NCBI RefSeq assembly: GCF_022343555.1
Contig: NZ_JAKQZH010000003.1
Span: 248,001 to 312,000, forward strand
Source of the DNA: Marinobacter sp. C7
GTDB taxonomy: Bacteria; Pseudomonadota; Gammaproteobacteria; Pseudomonadales; Oleiphilaceae
DNA: 64,000 nt
Direction: 5' to 3'
The notes beneath the pieces are model-generated. The model saw only the letters and a list, made by a program, of their open reading frames with translations, made no database searches and was not told where the DNA came from. The position numbers and the translations under genes are program-made. Positions 6,001 through 56,404 of this stretch are shown here, in pieces (within the stretch, counting starts at the first letter, position 1; the number at the start of each line of letters is the position of its first letter).

Positions 6001-6142
6001 TCTGGAGACTCCTTTTCATAAAAGACGCGTATAACTACAAAAGTCAGTGTAGTCACACGCCCCGGGGATGCCACCGCTTGTCCGGACGGATTGCGTACGT
6101 GGTTTTACCAACGGAAAGTCAGCAACTATAGTTTGGAGAAGT

Positions 6143-6958
6143 ATGTTCAACAGACATGCGGCCGTCGCCTGTACTGAGAAGCCAGGAGTAGTCGTGGAGC
6201 GACCTGAAGTTCTCTTTGACGCGTCCCATTGCGGTCAATGCGCCTGCGGTGAAGGGTTGGGGTTTTCGTTCAGCTTTGCCTTTCAGCCCATTGTGGATGT
6301 GGTCAACCGTTCGGTGTTCGCTCACGAAGCCCTGGTCCGGGGAACGGGCGGGGAGGGCGCACAACATGTACTCTCCAGGGTCACCGACCAGAACCGCTAT
6401 GCCTTCGATCAGGTTTGCCGGGTCAAGGCCGTCAAGCTTGCCTCCCGACTCGGAATGGAGTCGATGCTCAGCATCAATTTCATGCCCAATGCCGTATACC
6501 AGGCAGAATACTGCATCCGGACAACCCTGGCGGCGGCACGAACCTACAACTTTGATACCAGTAAGATCATTTTCGAGCTGACCGAGAATGAAAACCTGTC
6601 CTCCGTTGAGCATCTGGTGTCGATCATCGAGGCCTATCGGGAGATGGGATTCAGTACCGCGATCGATGATTTCGGTGCCGGTTATTCCCGCTACAACATC
6701 ATGATGGCAAGCCCTCCGGACCTGCTGAAGCTGGATATGGGGCTGGTGCGCAATATCAACGCCGAGCCCAACAAGCAGGCTGTGATAGCTGGCATCATTG
6801 CGATGATGGAGCGCCTGGGTGGTCGCATCATCGCCGAAGGTGTAGAAACGCGGGAGGAATATTTCTGGCTTCGGGACCAGGGCATCAGTCTGTTCCAGGG
6901 ATTCCTGTTCGCCAGACCGGGTTTTGAGTGCCTGCCGGAACCCGAGTATCCTGCCTGA
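6143..6958 (+). CDS. Stand-alone EAL-domain c-di-GMP phosphodiesterase
   Basis: A roughly 271-residue EAL protein with no GGDEF partner in the same chain. It would hydrolyse cyclic di-GMP. Seen: E62-A63-L64 in HEALVRG, NFMPNAV, ELTENEN, the metal and loop-6 motif IDDFGAGYS, LKLDM, AEGVET and QGFLFARP. All usual catalytic residues appear to be present. A short N-terminal region carries three clustered Cys residues (30, 33, 35) in HCGQCACG, which could sense redox or bind metal (inference). The ATG at 6143 follows TGGAGAAG. A longer in-frame start exists at 6068 but has no good ribosome site. Transcribed away from the dehydrogenase. Confidence 0.88.
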   Translation: MFNRHAAVACTEKPGVVVERPEVLFDASHCGQCACGEGLGFSFSFAFQPIVDVVNRSVFAHEALVRGTGGEGAQHVLSRVTDQNRYAFDQVCRVKAVKLASRLGMESMLSINFMPNAVYQAEYCIRTTLAAARTYNFDTSKIIFELTENENLSSVEHLVSIIEAYREMGFSTAIDDFGAGYSRYNIMMASPPDLLKLDMGLVRNINAEPNKQAVIAGIIAMMERLGGRIIAEGVETREEYFWLRDQGISLFQGFLFARPGFECLPEPEYPA

Positions 6959-12789: not shown

Positions 12790-13560
12790 ATGAGCAACAA
12801 GAACCTGTTTGATCTGTCCGGCAAGGTGGCCCTGGTCACCGGCGCCAGCCGGGGTATTGGCGAGAGCATCGCCCGGACCCTGGCCCACTACGGGGCTCAT
12901 GTCATCGTCAGCAGCCGCAAGATCGACGGCTGCGAGAAAGTAGCCAGTAGCATCCGTGAGGAGGGCGGAAGCGCCGAAGCGGTTGCCTGCCATATCGGGG
13001 AAATGGATCAGATCGAGGCTATCTGGGACCATATCGACAAGGAACACGGCAAGCTGGATATCCTGGTCAACAACGCTGCGGCCAACCCGTATTTCGGGCC
13101 GGTGGAAGACACCGACCTGGGCGCGTTCCAGAAGACCGTGGACGTGAACATCCGCGGCTACTTCTTCATGTGCGCCCGCGGCGCCCAGCTGATGAAGAAA
13201 CATGACGGTGGGGCGATCGTTAACGTGGCATCCGTGAATGGCGTGAATCCCGGGCACTTCCAGGGCATCTACTCGGTCACCAAGGCCGCGGTGATCTCCA
13301 TGACCAAATCCTTCGCCATGGAGCTTGGCCAACAGAACATCCGCGTCAACGCACTGTTGCCGGGTCTGACCGACACCAAGTTCGCCAGCGCGCTGACGAC
13401 CAATGACGCCATCAAGAAACAGGCGATGGCGCACATCCCCATGAAGCGTGTGGCCGATCCCGATGAGATGGCGGGTACCGTGCTGTATCTGGTCTCCGGG
13501 GCATCCAGCTACACGACCGGTGCGTGCATTAACGCCGATGGTGGTTACCTGACCATTTAA
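12790..13560 (+). CDS. Short-chain dehydrogenase/reductase (FabG-like)
   Basis: A 256-residue classical SDR. TGASRGIG lies at 17-24, NNAAANPYF near 94-102, and the catalytic Ser in NVASVNG with Y161-x3-K165 in YSVTK. The C-terminus YTTGACINADGGYL is the usual SDR ending. The likely cofactor is NAD(P); the substrate is probably a hydroxyacyl-CoA or related alcohol, given the operon. It is the last gene of the operon, 17 bp after the phosphatase gene, and is followed by a three-copy palindrome array. Confidence 0.87.
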   Translation: MSNKNLFDLSGKVALVTGASRGIGESIARTLAHYGAHVIVSSRKIDGCEKVASSIREEGGSAEAVACHIGEMDQIEAIWDHIDKEHGKLDILVNNAAANPYFGPVEDTDLGAFQKTVDVNIRGYFFMCARGAQLMKKHDGGAIVNVASVNGVNPGHFQGIYSVTKAAVISMTKSFAMELGQQNIRVNALLPGLTDTKFASALTTNDAIKKQAMAHIPMKRVADPDEMAGTVLYLVSGASSYTTGACINADGGYLTI

Positions 13561-13573
13561 CCGGAGCGAAGCT

Positions 13574-13737
13574 GGGGTCAGAAGAAAGCCTTCTTCTGAC
13601 CCCGGATTCAAGTTCGACCCCAAGGCTGTGGCCTGAAATCGGGGTCAGAAGAACGCTTTCTTCTGACCCCAGGTTCAGGTTTAACCTCAAGCCTGGGCTG
13701 TGAAATTGGGGTCAGATGAACGCTTTCATCTGACCCC
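13574..13737. repeat. Three-copy REP-like palindrome array
   Basis: Copies at 13574-13603, 13641-13670 (AAGAA/TTCTT subtype) and 13708-13737 (ATGAA/TTCAT subtype), spaced exactly 67 and 67 bp. The two spacers resemble each other (both run TTCAxGTTxxACCxCAAG), which suggests the array grew by tandem duplication. It lies between convergent genes. Confidence 0.85.
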
Positions 13738-13765
13738 GACTTCACGCCGACCCCCCACTCCCCCC

Positions 13766-14644
13766 TCAGGCCGGCTCACAGGTCAGCGCCCGGAAATCCC
13801 CGCGAAGCTCCACCGCCCGCTCTTCCAGATGCGCCAGATGCGAAGGCGCACCAGCCTCAATCAGCTCATACATCAGTTCCGCCATCGCCGCCCGGCTCTC
13901 GGTCATCATTTCCTTGTAGGCGTCTCCACGGACCTCGGCGGAGTTCAGAAGCAAGTAGCGGACCCGCTCGCCGAACGCCGGCGAGTCCCGTTCTTCCAGC
14001 GCTTCCAACAGGGCCAGCTGCCAGTTACGGCGGCCTTCCAGCCAGATTTCGGTCTGCCGGCCCCGGTTCTCGGACCACTCACGGGCGATTCTCTGCTGCC
14101 GGGTGTTCAACGTCCCGAGCCAGTTTTCGATGCGTTCTATCGTCCGCTCTGCCCGGGCGTCTGCCCGCGCCTGCGGCGAACCCAGGAGAAATTTTTCCTC
14201 CATCTCCTGATGGTTTCGGGCCATGTTTCTGGCCAGTTCGGCCACCTGCTCGTCGCTCAGAGACGCGAGCAGATTGGCGGCCGTTGGTGCGGCCTGTTCA
14301 AGCAACCCGGGAATAAACTCGAACAGGCGCTGCTGGTGGTAGCTGACCCTTGCCCGGTCCAGATCACCCGCGCGGGTGTCCCTGGCCAGTTCGGTCAGCC
14401 ATTGCCGGTAACGGGGCAGTTCTGCAGTGCAGTGCCACTGGCGGAGGTTGTCGAAGTCCCGAGCCAGCCGCTGTTCCTGTTCGGCAGTCAGGGTTACGTA
14501 GTCGTCGACCCACCAGCTTACGCCCCAGTCGGCATACCGGTAGGCCGTACGCGTCGAGCTACAGGCAGAGAGCAGCAGGAGAACGAAGAGCGCCATGGCT
14601 GCTCGTACGAGGGGGCTCGGTAGGTGGGCGGGAATAGTCATCAC
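13766..14644 (-). CDS. DUF6279-type lipoprotein
   Basis: A 292-residue predicted lipoprotein. The hydrophobic N-terminus ends in LLLSACSS, with the lipid-modified Cys at about 28, followed by a largely helical, charged domain that begins TRTAYRYADWGVSWWVDDY. This matches proteins annotated DUF6279. Likely anchored to the outer membrane and facing the periplasm; its function is unknown. It is transcribed divergently from the DUF2798 gene. Confidence 0.72.
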   Translation of the reverse strand: MMTIPAHLPSPLVRAAMALFVLLLLSACSSTRTAYRYADWGVSWWVDDYVTLTAEQEQRLARDFDNLRQWHCTAELPRYRQWLTELARDTRAGDLDRARVSYHQQRLFEFIPGLLEQAAPTAANLLASLSDEQVAELARNMARNHQEMEEKFLLGSPQARADARAERTIERIENWLGTLNTRQQRIAREWSENRGRQTEIWLEGRRNWQLALLEALEERDSPAFGERVRYLLLNSAEVRGDAYKEMMTESRAAMAELMYELIEAGAPSHLAHLEERAVELRGDFRALTCEPA

Positions 14645-47317: not shown

Positions 47318-47569
47318 GGTAAGTCGTCTCTAGCACTGACTTACCTTGATATTAGTGGAAGATCCGCCCGGCACCAGCCCCCCTGGGAAGTAGACGCTCA
47401 GGAAGGGACCGTCACCGGTGTTTTTGCCACTGATCATTTTCTTGCCTTGAAGCAAAAATAGACAGATCAACCTGTGCAAGAATCACTCTTGAGCTATCCT
47501 GAGGTCCGAACTGACGGAAAACAGTGACAGCATTCCCGCTATAGCTGGGTTTTGATAACGGAGTGTCCC

Positions 47570-48559
47570 TTGCACATACTCGTCACCGGTGGCGCCGGTT
47601 TTATTGGCTCCAACATTGCTGAATACCATCTCAAACGGGGCGACAAGGTACATGTGGTGGATAACCTCAGTACCGGCTCGGAAGCCAATATCGCCGCATT
47701 CATCGAGAATCCCGATTTCCGGTTTGACCAGGCCGACATCGTCACCTGGGATGGCCTGGACACGGCCGTTGCCTGGGCAGACCGTATCTACCACATGGCG
47801 GCGGTTGTGGGCGTGTACCGGGTGCTCAGTGAGCCGGTGGGAACCATGGCCACCAACATCGCCGGCACCGAGCGTCTGCTGCGGTCGGTGAACCGTGACA
47901 GCTGGGCGCCGCAGGTGATCCTCGCCTCCAGTTCGGAGGTTTATGGTCCGCACACCGAACCGCGGTTGACCGAGGACGACTCCCTGATCATTCAGTCCGG
48001 CGCCCCCCTGCGCTGGAACTATGCCATCAGCAAACTGGCGGACGAGGGCTTTGGCCTGGCCTATGCCCGGGAACACAACATCCGCGTGATCATCGCCCGT
48101 TTCTTCAATACCGTAGGACCACGGCAGACCGGCCGCTACGGCATGGTGGTGCCCCGCTTTGTCCGGAAAGCCGTGGCCAATGAGCCGATTACCGTATTCG
48201 GGGATGGTGAGCAGTCGCGCTCCTTCTGCGATGTGCGCGATACGGTCGTGGCGCTCGACCGTCTGGCGTCGATGCCCGATCTGCCCAACGGCGAGATCGT
48301 CAACGTCGGCAGTGACCGGGAGATCAGCATCAATGAGCTTGCCCGGCTGGTGATCGAGTGCGCCGGGAGCCGCTCGACCATCGACCATATTCCCTACCGG
48401 GAAGCCTATGGCGCGGAGTTTGAGGATATCCGCCACCGTCGACCCTCGCTGGACAAGCTCCGCCGGCTCACCGGTTTTGAACACGCCTGGACCCTCGAGG
48501 AAACCCTCAAGGATCTGATCGACCGGGCCCGTAAACAGATCACGGAAGGAGAGAAGTAG
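47570..48559 (+). CDS. NAD-dependent sugar epimerase/dehydratase
   Basis: A 329-residue extended SDR. GGAGFIG at 7-13, SSSEVYG at 120-126 and catalytic Y151-x3-K155 in NYAISKLADEG are intact. It resembles nucleotide-sugar epimerases, such as UDP-glucose or UDP-GlcA epimerases. The TTG start at 47570 follows AACGGAG by 7 bp. Its stop is 1 bp before the glycosyltransferase start. It probably supplies the sugar used by that enzyme. Confidence 0.85.
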   Translation: MHILVTGGAGFIGSNIAEYHLKRGDKVHVVDNLSTGSEANIAAFIENPDFRFDQADIVTWDGLDTAVAWADRIYHMAAVVGVYRVLSEPVGTMATNIAGTERLLRSVNRDSWAPQVILASSSEVYGPHTEPRLTEDDSLIIQSGAPLRWNYAISKLADEGFGLAYAREHNIRVIIARFFNTVGPRQTGRYGMVVPRFVRKAVANEPITVFGDGEQSRSFCDVRDTVVALDRLASMPDLPNGEIVNVGSDREISINELARLVIECAGSRSTIDHIPYREAYGAEFEDIRHRRPSLDKLRRLTGFEHAWTLEETLKDLIDRARKQITEGEK

Positions 48560-48560
48560 T

Positions 48561-49955
48561 ATGGCAACCGCGCCCTGGTTCGTCATTGGTCCCAGCACCC
48601 TGGTTGCCTTCATCGGCCTGATGCGCGGGCCGGACAAAACCCCGCCCGAGAGCGCGGAAGACTGGCGTGACGCCACCGTGGATGTGGTGATTCCGGCGCT
48701 CAACGAGGAGCAGAACATTCTGCTTGCCCTCAGTTCCATCGCCCGCCAGAGTCTCAAGCCCCGCAAGGTGGTGCTGGTGGATGACGGCAGCACCGACAGG
48801 ACGGCCGAGGTTGCCCGTGCCTTCGGTGAAGATCTTGGCCTGGCTCTGGAAGTGATCCGGCGTGAGGAGTCGATCGGCAAGACCCCGACCGTCAAGCGCG
48901 AGGCCAGGGATCTGGACGCCGATGTGGAGGTCGTCCTCGATGGCGACACCTTCCTGGAATCGGAGAACTACATCGAGCGGCTGGTCCAGGAAATCTACAA
49001 GGCCCCCGGCGTGGCTTCGGTCTGCGGCGTGGTGCAGCCGATGCGGGAAACGGACCGCCGCGCGATCAGCGATGAGGCGCCCCTCAAAGGCTTCCTGGAG
49101 AAACACGCAAACTACGTTACCCCGCGTCCCGGTGCCTGGCAACGTTTCAACCGCGCCATCACCAACTTCTATCGCGGAATTCTCTATACCTTCCTCCAGC
49201 GCTTCGTATACCGGGGCCAGATGACCGTGTTCGGCAGCATCATCAATCCCGTCGGCTGTGCCGTGGCCTATCGCCGCGAATACCTCAAGGAGCTGTTCGA
49301 TTACTACGAGCCAATCCTGGGGGACGACCTCACCAACTCCGAGGACATCTTCATCGGATTTGCGTTGCTGAACGAGGGGTACCGCAACGTACAGCTGCAG
49401 GATGTGACGGTACGCTCACTGGAACCGGAGTTTCCCCGGCTCGCCCACCAGCTGTACTTCTGGTCTTCCAGCTTCCTGCAGAGCTGCTACTACTTTGACG
49501 GCCTGCTACGCAGCCCCTTCAAGGGCTTCCGCCGCTATCGCCAGAAGCATGAGGCGAAGCACTACGAGGAAGACCATCCGGATACCCGTGACCACATCCA
49601 CCGGCGCGGCGAACCGTACCGGCAGCCCTGGGGGCAGGGCTACACCAGAAAATACGGCCGGCCCATGGGCTGGGCGGTGTTCATGGCAGCGCTGGAAAAG
49701 ATTGCGTTCCCCACAGCCCTGCTGATCATGCTGATCCTGCAACTGTGGGAACCGTTGCTGATTACCTTCCTGGCCGAGATGACACTGGTGATCCTGATCC
49801 TCATGTTCAATGCCCCGGGCCACCGGTTCCGGGCCTTCTGGGAAGCCATCGCGGTGACACCGCTCCGTTACGGCAGCCTGCTGTTCGATGCGGTAAACAT
49901 CGGGCGGTTCGCGACCGATCTCTGGATTACACGCAACCGGAGGTGGCGCAAATGA
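48561..49955 (+). CDS. Processive family 2 glycosyltransferase (exopolysaccharide synthase-like)
   Basis: A 464-residue GT2 enzyme. A short N-terminal hydrophobic segment is followed by the GT-A domain: VDVVIPALNEEQNI, DDGS (74-77), DGD (127-129), and the late NSEDIFIGFAL. Two or three helices near 370-425 anchor it. A C-terminal RNRRW could be the QxxRW-like motif. It resembles the N-acetylglucosaminyltransferases of PgaC/IcaA type. It starts 1 bp after the epimerase stop and overlaps the next gene by ATGA. Confidence 0.83.
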   Translation: MATAPWFVIGPSTLVAFIGLMRGPDKTPPESAEDWRDATVDVVIPALNEEQNILLALSSIARQSLKPRKVVLVDDGSTDRTAEVARAFGEDLGLALEVIRREESIGKTPTVKREARDLDADVEVVLDGDTFLESENYIERLVQEIYKAPGVASVCGVVQPMRETDRRAISDEAPLKGFLEKHANYVTPRPGAWQRFNRAITNFYRGILYTFLQRFVYRGQMTVFGSIINPVGCAVAYRREYLKELFDYYEPILGDDLTNSEDIFIGFALLNEGYRNVQLQDVTVRSLEPEFPRLAHQLYFWSSSFLQSCYYFDGLLRSPFKGFRRYRQKHEAKHYEEDHPDTRDHIHRRGEPYRQPWGQGYTRKYGRPMGWAVFMAALEKIAFPTALLIMLILQLWEPLLITFLAEMTLVILILMFNAPGHRFRAFWEAIAVTPLRYGSLLFDAVNIGRFATDLWITRNRRWRK

Positions 49956-51757
49956 GACACCTGTTTGCCGGACTGATTCTGTCCCTGTGCGCGGGGGCGC
50001 TGCACGCTGCCCCTGCCGTGCCGGAAGCGGGCCTGAAGGCCGAAATGGCCGGAGAGTGGGAGAGCGCACTGACGGTCTACCGTTCCGTGCTGGAAAGCCA
50101 GCCTCAGCGAGTGGATCTCTGGTTGAGGATGGCGGATATCTACCACCGTCTGGAACGCCCGCAAGAAACCATCAATGCCCTGGAGCAGGCCCGCGAACTC
50201 GCGCCGGACAACGCTGAAATCGCCTTCCGGTTGTCCCGCGCCTACGCCATGGCCGACCGCCCGGCGGACGCCCTGCAGCAATGTCAGCAGGCCGTGGAGC
50301 TGGAGCCGAGCAACGTCGATTACCTGCACACCTGCCTGCAACAGGCTAACTGGGCCCGCAATCGCGCAGCCGCGGAGCGCACCATCGAGTCGCTGCTGGC
50401 GATTTCCCCCCGGGACCGAGATGCCCTGCTGAGTCGGGCCCTCTGGCACAGCTGGATGGGTGAGTATGAACAGGCCGCCACCGCCTATGACGAGTACCTG
50501 CGCCATTACCCGGAGGACCACGACGCGACCGTAGCCCGCATCCAGGTGCTGGGCTGGGCCGGGGACCATGAGGGGGCCGAAAAGGCCCTGGCGGATTACC
50601 GCCAACGCTTTGGAGACACGGACGCCTATCAACGGGCCAGGGCTCAGGTGTTGCTGCAACAGGGACGGTACTATTCGGCCTCGGACCTGCTCACGCCTTT
50701 GGCCGAGCGACACCCGGAGGATTACGATATCCACTTTGCCCGGGTGCTGGCCACCCGCGCATCCGGCCAGCCTTCCGAGGCGCTGGACAGCCTGGCGGTC
50801 CTGGAAGCCCGGAAGCCGGGCGAGCCGGAAACCCGCGAGCTGGCCCGGGTCACCCGTGCTCCCTTGCGTTCCCTGGTGGGCATCACCGGCGACCATCAGT
50901 TTGATGCCGATGACATCCGCATCACCACAGGCAAAGTATTCGGTGAGCTCGCACTCAGCCCCGAAACCCGGGCGCTGATGGGCTACAGCGCCCGCCGCGT
51001 CAGTACCCGTCAGGGCTCGGAGTTCATAGCCGAGGATGGCGACCGTTCCACCATGGATTACTACGGCTGGGTCGGTATGCGCCACCAGCTGCACCCGCGT
51101 GTGGCAGTGGAAGGCCGTGTGGGCCGGGGCAACATCGAGGGCGGCGGCGATTACGGCTACTACCTGCTGGAGGGCGACTGGCACCCCCACGATGACTGGT
51201 CGCTGCAGCTTTCCCGCGAACGGGCCCTGTACGCGTTGTCACCGCTGTCCGTATCACGGGAGATCGTTGAAACCGAGAACCGCCTTCGCGCCCTGTGGCA
51301 CCCGGGTATGCTGTACCAGGTGGAGGGATGGATCAGCGCCTCGGACTTCTCGGACGACAACAGCCGCCTGGAGTTCTACCTGGCTCCCAGCCGCCGCGTC
51401 TACCAGAACGGGCCCTGGGGCGTGAACCTCGGTCTTTCCGCCCAGCGTTTCACCTTCGACAAGGACCTGGACAACGGTTACTACGATCCGGACTACTTCA
51501 ACCGCTTTGCCGGCACCGCGCTCTTCTACTGGAGCCCGAACGTGGATGACTGGGTCGGCCTGCGCACCAGCCTCGGCTGGCACAAGGACGATACGTTCTC
51601 CAGCTACGAGTTCGGCTCCGACGTGGAACTCGAAGCCCTCATCGGCCGCTACCGCGACTGGCAGTTCCACGGCCGTATTGCCTACGCCGACCGGCTGCAG
51701 GAGACCGGGCGGTACTATGGCACCTCGATTCACCTTGGGCTGATTCGGCGGTTCTGA
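49952..51757 (+). CDS. TPR and outer-membrane beta-barrel protein (YaiO/PgaA-like exporter)
   Basis: A 601-residue exported protein. The signal peptide ends in LHAAP. Tetratricopeptide repeats fill about residues 27-300 (SALTVYRSVLESQPQRVDLW; ALEQARELAPDNAEIAFRLS; AVELEPSNVDYL). The C-terminal half is a 16-strand-like barrel beginning SLVGITGDHQF and ending GTSIHLGLIRRF with a terminal Phe. This layout matches PgaA and YaiO. The ATGA overlap with the glycosyltransferase couples them, so it is probably the secretion channel for that polymer. Confidence 0.82.
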   Translation: MRHLFAGLILSLCAGALHAAPAVPEAGLKAEMAGEWESALTVYRSVLESQPQRVDLWLRMADIYHRLERPQETINALEQARELAPDNAEIAFRLSRAYAMADRPADALQQCQQAVELEPSNVDYLHTCLQQANWARNRAAAERTIESLLAISPRDRDALLSRALWHSWMGEYEQAATAYDEYLRHYPEDHDATVARIQVLGWAGDHEGAEKALADYRQRFGDTDAYQRARAQVLLQQGRYYSASDLLTPLAERHPEDYDIHFARVLATRASGQPSEALDSLAVLEARKPGEPETRELARVTRAPLRSLVGITGDHQFDADDIRITTGKVFGELALSPETRALMGYSARRVSTRQGSEFIAEDGDRSTMDYYGWVGMRHQLHPRVAVEGRVGRGNIEGGGDYGYYLLEGDWHPHDDWSLQLSRERALYALSPLSVSREIVETENRLRALWHPGMLYQVEGWISASDFSDDNSRLEFYLAPSRRVYQNGPWGVNLGLSAQRFTFDKDLDNGYYDPDYFNRFAGTALFYWSPNVDDWVGLRTSLGWHKDDTFSSYEFGSDVELEALIGRYRDWQFHGRIAYADRLQETGRYYGTSIHLGLIRRF

Positions 51758-51788
51758 CGGTTGCCCTTCTACCCTCCAGGGGTTTTCA

Positions 51789-51824
51789 AGCGGAGTTATG
51801 CGAAAGAGGACGTATAATTCCGCT
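51789..51824. repeat. GGAGTTATGCG palindrome, copy 2
   Basis: AGCGGAGTTATGCG (51789-51802) and CGTATAATTCCGCT (51811-51824), with two G:T-type differences, around AAAGAGGA. Similar in stem and loop to the palindrome at 38299-38330. Confidence 0.8.
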
Positions 51825-55475: not shown

Positions 55476-55660
55476 CCCTGATTGACATTTGTCACCCTCG
55501 GGTGAAGCCGTTAGCATTACCGGTTCGGAGTGATTCCACTCGCGGAGTCGCCCAACCCGTCACGCCCGGCCAGAAGTTTCATTCCGGATGGGAATCCCGT
55601 ATACGGCCACAGTGACCAGGCGCACCCTGATCGTCGCTGGCCGTAGTGCCGAGAAATTCC

Positions 55661-56404
55661 ATGAAACTGCTCACCATAAAAGATGTCATCCTCCGGATTG
55701 TCGCCATCATTGTCGTGGCGGAATTCCTGGTCATGCTGGTTTTACGGAACATTCCCCACCAGGCAAGCACATTCACAGAAGCTGTTCTCGATGCCGGGGC
55801 ATTGGCGCTTCTCTCGACTCCGGCGATCTATATATGGGTCATCAGGCCGTTTGTTAATGCCCGGGATGCAGCGCTGACCCGGATCCGGCACCTGGCCAGT
55901 GTTGATCCGTTAACGCAGCTGGCGAACCGGCGGCTCCTGGTGCAACATCTGGAGAAGGCTATGGCCGGCAGCGCCAGACACAAGGATCATGGGGCAGCAC
56001 TGCTTCTGGATCTCGATGGTTTCAAGGCGATCAACGACGGCCATGGGCACCTGGCGGGGGATGCGGTGTTGGTCGAAGTTGCAGCACGCCTTCAATCCGT
56101 CGTCCGCACCGACGACATCGTCGGGCGGCTGGGGGGTGATGAGTTTGTCGTTGTGCTTCACCGTCTCGGAGCTGATGAAGCAGCGGCGAGGATCAAGGCG
56201 ATGAGTGTGGCCGAAAAACTCATCAGCTTTGTAGGTGCTAAAGTTTACTTCGAGGGCGAGAGCTTGCATGTTGGCGCGAGCGTCGGGGTTCGCCTCATCG
56301 GATTTGAAGAGCAGGATGCCGAGGTGGTCATCGGGGACGCCGATGCCGCCATGTACCAGGCAAAGCAGAAAGGTGGTGGTTGCACTGTCTTTTTCGGAGA
56401 CTGA
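55661..56404 (+). CDS. Membrane diguanylate cyclase
   Basis: A 247-residue protein with two N-terminal helices (about 9-29 and 44-65) with a short periplasmic loop between them, followed by a GGDEF domain. GGDEF at 158-162 is intact, and R149-TD-D152, five residues before it, is a canonical product-inhibition I-site. It should synthesise c-di-GMP. An in-frame GTG at 55646 is an alternative start. Opposite in function to the EAL protein at 6143. Confidence 0.88.
   Translation: MKLLTIKDVILRIVAIIVVAEFLVMLVLRNIPHQASTFTEAVLDAGALALLSTPAIYIWVIRPFVNARDAALTRIRHLASVDPLTQLANRRLLVQHLEKAMAGSARHKDHGAALLLDLDGFKAINDGHGHLAGDAVLVEVAARLQSVVRTDDIVGRLGGDEFVVVLHRLGADEAAARIKAMSVAEKLISFVGAKVYFEGESLHVGASVGVRLIGFEEQDAEVVIGDADAAMYQAKQKGGGCTVFFGD

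Follow-up and report, generated by a model that had tools for sequence, protein, structure and literature searches.

A short locus in Marinobacter sp. C7 (RefSeq assembly GCF_022343555.1) raises the question of what sugar polymer, if any, three adjacent genes could make and export between them. The locus occupies positions 47570–51757 of a 64,000-nucleotide stretch of contig NZ_JAKQZH010000003.1 (positions 248,001 to 312,000; the window) and encodes a short-chain dehydrogenase/reductase (SDR), P0001, a membrane family 2 glycosyltransferase (GT2), P0002, and a predicted outer-membrane protein, P0003, that joins tetratricopeptide repeats (TPRs) to a barrel. A first-pass annotation of the same letters had described this trio, a 1-bp gap between the SDR and GT2 genes and an ATGA overlap of the GT2 and barrel genes, and all of these proved correct when we re-read the sequence. 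The answer that we favor, and hold tentatively, is a synthase-dependent exopolysaccharide operon whose SDR decarboxylates a UDP-uronic acid, at best guess UDP-N-acetylglucosaminuronic acid (UDP-GlcNAcA), to an amino-pentose donor. The idea of the first-pass annotation that a precursor enzyme, an inner-membrane polymerase and an outer-membrane exporter form one coupled unit is supported by conservation, gene overlap and predicted folds.

A conserved and portable three-gene unit

Near home, the GT2 is rare. It was found in two of the 144 nearest genomes besides the window's own (E <= 1e-20), both of the same genus, in nine of 368 genomes drawn from the class (E <= 1e-15) and in none of 397 drawn from the phylum, and in these scans matches either scored at least 478 bits or fell below threshold. 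Each of the 11 genomes that these scans added has an SDR and a TPR-barrel protein beside its GT2. A scan of named-species genomes then yielded 113 matching stretches; the best 80 of these, with six more, make up the set of 86 loci. An open reading frame (ORF) finder placed the SDR immediately upstream of the GT2 in 81 of these and the barrel immediately downstream in 80; after tblastn of the exceptions, an SDR or a contig-end fragment of one was present in 84 (it was not found in L071 and L106) and a barrel in 85, the contig of the remaining locus, L059, ending 172 bases past the GT2. As the trio is complete in these 11 genomes and in nearly every one of the 86 loci, it is a real unit and not a chance arrangement, which bears out the co-occurrence that the first-pass annotation had proposed to check. 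In 69 of the 82 loci with a full barrel ORF, the barrel frame has a start (ATGA, in a few cases GTGA) that makes it overlap the GT2 gene by exactly 4 bp, as counted by a script that preferred such a start wherever one exists, which suggests that translational coupling of the GT2 and the exporter is conserved.

Carriers include Marinobacter, Halothiobacillaceae, Thiobacillus and its relatives, Lysobacter, Rhodanobacter, Luteimonas, Formivibrio and, in Campylobacterota, Sulfurimonadaceae/Sulfuricurvum. The cassette is also present in metagenome-assembled genomes labeled Nitrospirae, Acidobacteriota, Aminicenantes, Dadabacteria, PVC and Poribacteria, labels that can be wrong in such assemblies; the GT2 tree places L046, labeled Rhizobium, within Thiobacillus. 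No relative of the cassette was confirmed in the viral contigs scanned. Of the 11 genomes added by the first scans, two differ from the rest: L031 has the barrel gene ahead of the other two, and the SDR of L030 shares only 29% identity. The latter locus (L030:9775-11163, genome G208) combines this divergent SDR with a GT2 copy that contains a stop codon and is a decaying or odd member of the family.

Within the genus, the cassette is a discrete module found at different genomic sites, with sharp ends to synteny at 47356–47380 and 51753–51760. The ligase gene that flanks it in the window occurs in 20 of 57 other relatives. When 11 such ligase-bearing relatives were fetched, the alignment to the window ended at 47356–47380 in all 11, 190–214 bp before the cassette. 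One cassette-bearing relative, L021, has the cassette at the same site and aligns as far as 51753, where the barrel gene ends; in another, L022, only 47529–51760 aligns, so there the cassette sits at another genomic site.

The predicted precursor enzyme and its possible sugar

The first-pass annotation called P0001 an epimerase, which is only the name of its Pfam family (PF01370), and its residues point elsewhere. Table 3 of PMC12820599 aligns the catalytic and signature residues of UXS, ArnA and UAXS as a triad (Tyr-x3-Lys and Ser/Thr) together with Glu434, Arg460, Arg619, Asn492, Ser433 and Tyr398 (ArnA numbers). According to PMC7984243, a carboxylate-binding Ser of the UDP-glucuronic acid 4-epimerase is a Glu in decarboxylases, and this Glu matters in catalysis. 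The signature residues of P0001 are S122, E123, R148, Y151, K155, N180 and R290. Across the window SDR and those of 79 loci (L030, L034 and L074 were left out at <200 bits and L101 by the motif filter, and L068, L071 and L106 have no full SDR), equivalents of Glu434, Arg460, Arg619, Asn492, Tyr463 and Lys467 are each present in 80 of 80 and of Ser433 in 79, so that 79 carry the complete set; the exception, L031, has Ala at Ser433. By comparison, the pair E434 and R460 occurs in none of five controls (GalE, RfaD, RffG, RfbB and the genome's own PseB-like protein). To judge from these residues, the SDR is probably a uronate decarboxylase rather than an epimerase.

Genes that accompany the cassette in relatives offer clues to the sugar. 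In 25 of the 86 loci, mostly of Thiobacillus-type and Rhodanobacter/Oleiagrimonas members, the barrel gene is followed on its own strand by a gene for a Polysacc_deac_1 protein, whose signal peptide was called by eye, and all five that we scanned of these 25 clustered proteins exceed the PF01522 cut-off; this gene suggests N-acetyl groups in the polymer. The first-pass description of the system as lacking a PgaB-like deacetylase describes the window locus correctly, but a linked deacetylase is present in these 25 relatives. Members of one cluster of nucleotide-sugar dehydrogenases occur in 12 of the 86 loci: adjoining the barrel (L065, L068, L102, L104), between SDR and GT2 (L031, L110), just before the SDR (L070, L098 and, at 348 bp, L099) and at a greater distance or on the opposite strand (L062, L066, L095). 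For seven of the eight tested, the TviB model (UDP-GlcNAc 6-dehydrogenase) was the best among equivalogs, in every case below cut-off; the eighth, from L104, matches another type. The TviB-like enzymes that adjoin the cassette come from distant lineages.

The window genome itself encodes a TviB above the equivalog cut-off (643.7 versus 592). Among 46 carriers hand-picked from the 87 distinct carrier genomes, 39 have a TviB (E <= 1e-100) and seven have no full one. The pairing of a UDP-GlcNAc dehydrogenase with UXNAcS to make UDP-N-acetylxylosamine is an established one (PMC5078965). Given this precedent and the TviB in the genome, we propose the route UDP-GlcNAc to UDP-GlcNAcA to UDP-N-acetylxylosamine. 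Loss of the tyrosine equivalent to Tyr398 could make room for the N-acetyl group.

A number of observations weigh against a decarboxylase acting on this route. The equivalent of Tyr398 is Val in 79 of the 80 SDRs and Thr in the other, and because this residue is replaced, P0001 is not a plain UXS or ArnA. It is as close to the dehydratase RffG (27% identity) as it is to ArnA (27%). RffG and RfbB share the Glu, although as Asp-Glu and with Ser at 460, and the equivalent of R619 may be a generic phosphate-binding Arg in a region where the dehydratase alignment is uncertain. With the NCBIfam model for UDP-xylose synthase P0001 scores 96.9, far short of the cut-off of 294, and no NCBIfam model places it: the dehydratase, LegB, ArnA, TviC and GalE models all score about 83–160 bits, below cut-off. 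The solved structure nearest to P0001 is 8vr2, for which no function is given. The deacetylase is present in only 25 of the 86 loci and a dehydrogenase is at hand in nine, and the window locus has neither. TviB is also common in any case, occurring at E <= 1e-100 in 210 of 369 class genomes (9 of 10 carriers and 201 of 359 others), and the window genome's own copy may serve the pseudaminic-acid-like cluster that it adjoins. We accordingly rejected TviB co-occurrence as decisive evidence: 39 of 46 against 210 of 369 is suggestive only and is confounded by kinship. The gene in question, L127:9281-10543, follows a run of pseudaminic-acid-like genes (named by eye), and no obvious TviC/WbpP-like gene was seen in the 20 kb read around it.

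The strongest competitor keeps the same machine and makes the SDR a true C4-epimerase, converting UDP-GlcNAc to UDP-GalNAc like PelX or UDP-GlcNAcA to UDP-GalNAcA like TviC, with a hexosamine or hexosaminuronic acid polymer that is partly deacetylated in relatives. We consider this unlikely, if a serious contender. Two of the close PDB matches of P0001, 6wjb (E 3.2e-36) and 6wj9 (E 2.9e-35), are what we take to be PelX, the TviC model does score P0001 (110 bits), TviB-like dehydrogenases adjoin the SDR in L031, L110 and L070 (as does an unscanned member of the same cluster in L098), and the 25 loci with a deacetylase would suit an N-acetylated hexosamine. Against this, the TviC score is far under its cut-off of 760, the R460 equivalent is invariant, and chain 6wjb, when aligned to L083, has Ala where all 80 SDRs have the Glu of the E434 place; this entry may be a mutant altered elsewhere in the motif. 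The UDP-glucuronic acid 4-epimerase has Ser there, according to PMC7984243.

Less probable again is a decarboxylase that takes UDP-glucuronic acid to UDP-xylose, or to a UDP-4-keto-pentose, for a xylan-like pentose chain. The decarboxylase signature of P0001 would suit this, and the window genome has a UDP-glucose dehydrogenase-like gene (L116; 503 bits with the TuaD model, under its cut-off of 700). The replaced Tyr398, the best match of seven of the eight tested cassette-linked dehydrogenases to TviB and the N-acetyl groups suggested by the 25 linked deacetylases all speak against it.

Predicted synthase and exporter, and comparison with known systems

P0003 has a signal peptide (by eye), TPRs and a PF21197 PgaA_barrel domain (32.6 bits against a 27-bit cut-off), the only match to that family in the genome. 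An AlphaFold model (mean pLDDT 94.1), built from alignment A4 of 62 rows picked for length and variety among the barrel proteins, shows 17 helices at residues 25–305, forming a superhelix of about eight TPRs, and then 16 strands at 308–600. VIA-align, which covers Foldseek's own matches only so that absences from it are uninformative, paired this model with PgaA (4y25; Z 27.9, root-mean-square deviation (rmsd) 2.2 over 278 residues), PelB (9h80; Z 25.9) and BcsC (6tzk; Z 25.5). In Foldseek's own ranking BcsC (9b8a) led and 4y25 came sixth, with a target-length TM of 0.83, and hhalign matched A4 to PgaA at 96% (residues 231–579 to 442–781). The PgaA equivalog TIGR03939 scored 90.7, not reaching its cut-off of 366.65. 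Structural modeling of the barrel, another check put forward in the first-pass annotation, thus finds an exporter architecture, the lack of which that annotation would have taken as a refutation. Four relatives (L029, L031, L103, L105) have exporters of about 1060–1165 amino acids, with TPR regions much longer than in the window's 601-residue protein and a GT2 of unchanged length.

P0002 matches GT2 families only in Pfam. It has a DxD motif at D127-G-D129, SED at 260–262 and, where QxxRW would be expected, Q297-L-Y-F-W301. In the GT2s of the window and the best 80 of the 113 matching stretches, D75, D127, D129, E261 and D262 are invariant (81 of 81); because the scan looked for the peptides NPVGCAVA and NSEDIFIG, these two stretches are conserved partly by construction. 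The predicted fold (pLDDT 88.4, 81 sequences) resembles hyaluronan synthases along residues 7–453 (8snc; Z 24.1, rmsd 3.0, 351 residues) and also BcsA, and Foldseek ranked BcsA and the hyaluronan synthases first.

Two features of the GT2 also weigh against our reading. The processive-synthase motif lacks its Arg in 81 of 81, reading Q-x-Y-L/M-W as a rule (Gln in 79, Tyr in 74 and Trp in all 81), which is a mark of this clade and a caution against assuming processivity; and the highest VIA-align score belongs to PcManGT (Z 28.5 over 317 residues), a named mannosyltransferase and not a known polymerase. These two features are what favors a GT2 that transfers one sugar residue to a lipid or protein carrier, beside a TPR/barrel protein that exports or anchors something else, an improbable arrangement given a PgaA-type barrel gene beside the GT2 in 85 of 86 loci and a processive-synthase match that runs through the membrane part.

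Synthase-dependent export is well supported by these predicted folds. In the mechanism that we propose, the cytoplasmic step would be the formation of an activated sugar by the SDR, and the likeliest reaction for this is oxidative decarboxylation of a UDP-uronic acid. At best guess, this would be UDP-GlcNAcA from a TviB-type dehydrogenase encoded elsewhere in the genome, converted to a UDP-2-acetamido-2-deoxy-pentose as in the UXNAcS reaction. The GT2 would polymerize this donor and, in the manner of hyaluronan and cellulose synthases, thread the chain across the inner membrane. In the periplasm, the TPR superhelix would then guide the chain into the fused 16-stranded barrel for export, possibly toward a biofilm matrix, and in some relatives a deacetylase would trim the N-acetyl groups.

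The first-pass annotation also suggested a new compact secretion type, a claim that earlier descriptions undercut. As described in PMC8669472 and PMC8669469, the NfrB-NfrA-WecB system of E. coli (NGR, phage N4 receptor), the nearest in logic, already has this design: the gene of a GT2 synthase overlaps that of a TPR and 16-strand-barrel protein and is served by a nucleotide-sugar epimerase. Our cassette likewise has a TPR and a 16-strand barrel, by its model, with a gene that overlaps the synthase gene by 4 bp. However, NfrB has a C-terminal MshEN domain for cyclic di-GMP (c-di-GMP) and the QxxRW motif, which all NfrB homologues keep according to PMC8669469, whereas P0002 shows neither; the cassette has an SDR rather than a WecB-type UDP-GlcNAc 2-epimerase; and the GT2 profile (A3) did not match NfrB (hhalign probability 0.3%).

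PgaABCD is the nearest system in its exporter, P0003 having TPRs and a PgaA-type barrel by PF21197, hhalign and fold. The N-domain of the GT2 also resembles PgaC (hhalign 97%, residues 37–135), although ArnC (97%) and YaiP (96%) match the same domain equally. P0002 is nevertheless far under the PgaC equivalog TIGR03937 (51.5 versus 422.3), and the cassette adds an SDR gene. No match to PgaD (PF13994) or to the PgaB C-terminal GHL13 domain (PF14883) was found in the whole genome, with an E. coli control positive for both, and the space among the three genes is too small for a PgaD gene. Neither outer-membrane polysaccharide export (OPX/Wza) nor polysaccharide co-polymerase (PCP) proteins were found among the ten window proteins scanned, a genome-wide search not having been made. 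To that extent the first-pass annotation was right that PgaB, PgaD and Wza-type proteins are absent locally. A pga organization without pgaB and pgaD is described for environmental bacteria in PMC7112194, and that group may overlap this cassette family.

The SDR can be set beside two further systems. With the ArnA decarboxylase domain and UXS, P0001 shares the triad and the S433, E434, R460, N492 and R619 equivalents, and it differs from them in the Val at Tyr398 and in its low identity to ArnA. With the TviB-TviC pair of the Vi antigen it shares a TviB-like dehydrogenase that adjoins the SDR in some relatives, and it differs in its low TviC score. Vi antigen is exported by an ABC transporter, whereas the cassette is predicted to export by way of a synthase and barrel. 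We rejected the GT2 as an orthologue of NodC, PgaC, NfrB or YaiP because scores were far under cut-offs or only the common N-domain matched. Since it fails the PgaC, PgaD and PgaB/GHL13 tests and the NfrB tests of MshEN, QxxRW and WecB, the cassette files under neither Pga nor NfrB-NfrA-WecB.

It would add a distinct branch of synthase-dependent systems, one that lacks PgaD, has no c-di-GMP domain detected in its synthase and in many loci has no deacetylase gene linked to it. As a polymer factory of three genes it is portable, occurs in sulfur oxidizers, Lysobacteraceae, Marinobacter and beyond, and is small enough for transfer to a laboratory strain. Were the SDR a decarboxylase, an amino-pentose matrix polysaccharide would be indicated. 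The bolder form of this idea, which we rate as doubtful, is a widespread and undescribed class of exopolysaccharide whose only unit is N-acetylxylosamine (2-acetamido-2-deoxy-xylose). A TviB-type dehydrogenase and a decarboxylase dedicated to UDP-GlcNAcA would form the donor from UDP-GlcNAc, the QxYLW clade of GT2s would polymerize it, and the cassette's own TPR/PgaA-type barrel would export the polymer, with de-N-acetylation on export in some lineages. Among the open-licence papers listed, no title or opening of an abstract reports such a three-gene operon or an N-acetylxylosamine exopolysaccharide, and in the same literature we found no experiment on any member of the cassette family.

Regulation and surroundings of the locus

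The first-pass annotation proposed control of the cassette by c-di-GMP through two window genes. Both are real, a GGDEF gene at 55646–56404 and an EAL gene at 6068–6958, lying 4 kb and 41 kb from the cassette, and Pfam detects no c-di-GMP domain in P0002. A motif filter that recovers both of these genes, applied to flanks that reach at most 10 kb, found GGDEF ORFs in 14 of the 86 loci and an EAL ORF in one. Of the 14, nine are same-strand ORFs 6–9 kb downstream, eight of them in Lysobacteraceae/Rhodanobacteraceae and the ninth in L079, a placement that shared synteny would give; four are on the opposite strand (L040, L060, L073, L092). In Rehaibacterium terrae (L042), a GGDEF ORF (13348–14361) begins 148 bp past the barrel on the same strand, and this is the one locus where the linkage looks operonic. 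With GGDEF ORFs in so few loci and rarely adjacent, the proposed control has a weak basis and is not disproved.

The coordinates of the cassette are given in Table 1. Translation of the SDR gene would begin at a TTG, with GGAG six bases upstream (47560–47563). This start is supported by 83 homologous SDR ORFs, 77 of which have a start-type codon at the equivalent residue (ATG in 72, GTG in four, TTG in one). Terminator-like hairpins of the kind listed number six, against a shuffle mean of 3.4, and composition analysis gave nothing informative.

Table 1. Positions in the window of the cassette genes and associated features
Feature	Position	Strand	Basis or remark
SDR nucleotide-sugar enzyme P0001, 329 aa	47570..48559	+	Pfam 'Epimerase' PF01370; ArnA/UXS uronate-decarboxylase signature residues
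Membrane GT2 polysaccharide synthase (predicted) P0002, 464 aa	48561..49955	+	PF00535/PF13641, motifs, model
Outer-membrane exporter (predicted) P0003, 601 aa	49952..51757	+	TPRs and PF21197, model
ATGA overlap of GT2 and exporter genes	49952..49955	+	4 bp; probable translational coupling
Hairpin 3' of exporter gene, possible weak terminator	51789..51824	+	14 pairs, poor T tail; consensus match only

The genes that flank the cassette look unrelated to it: upstream, on the opposite strand, are a GCS2-like ligase and an AstE-like protein, and downstream is an ELFV dehydrogenase. Elsewhere than at the locus, the window genome has four Polysacc_deac_1 genes. One further gene, L113 (G000:C25:1511934), encodes an XrtA system polysaccharide deacetylase (402 bits against a cut-off of 276), and the genome probably has a second, XrtA-linked exopolysaccharide locus. 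It also has an AlgD-like gene, L117 (G000:C36:727528), which resembles GDP-mannose dehydrogenase by eye.

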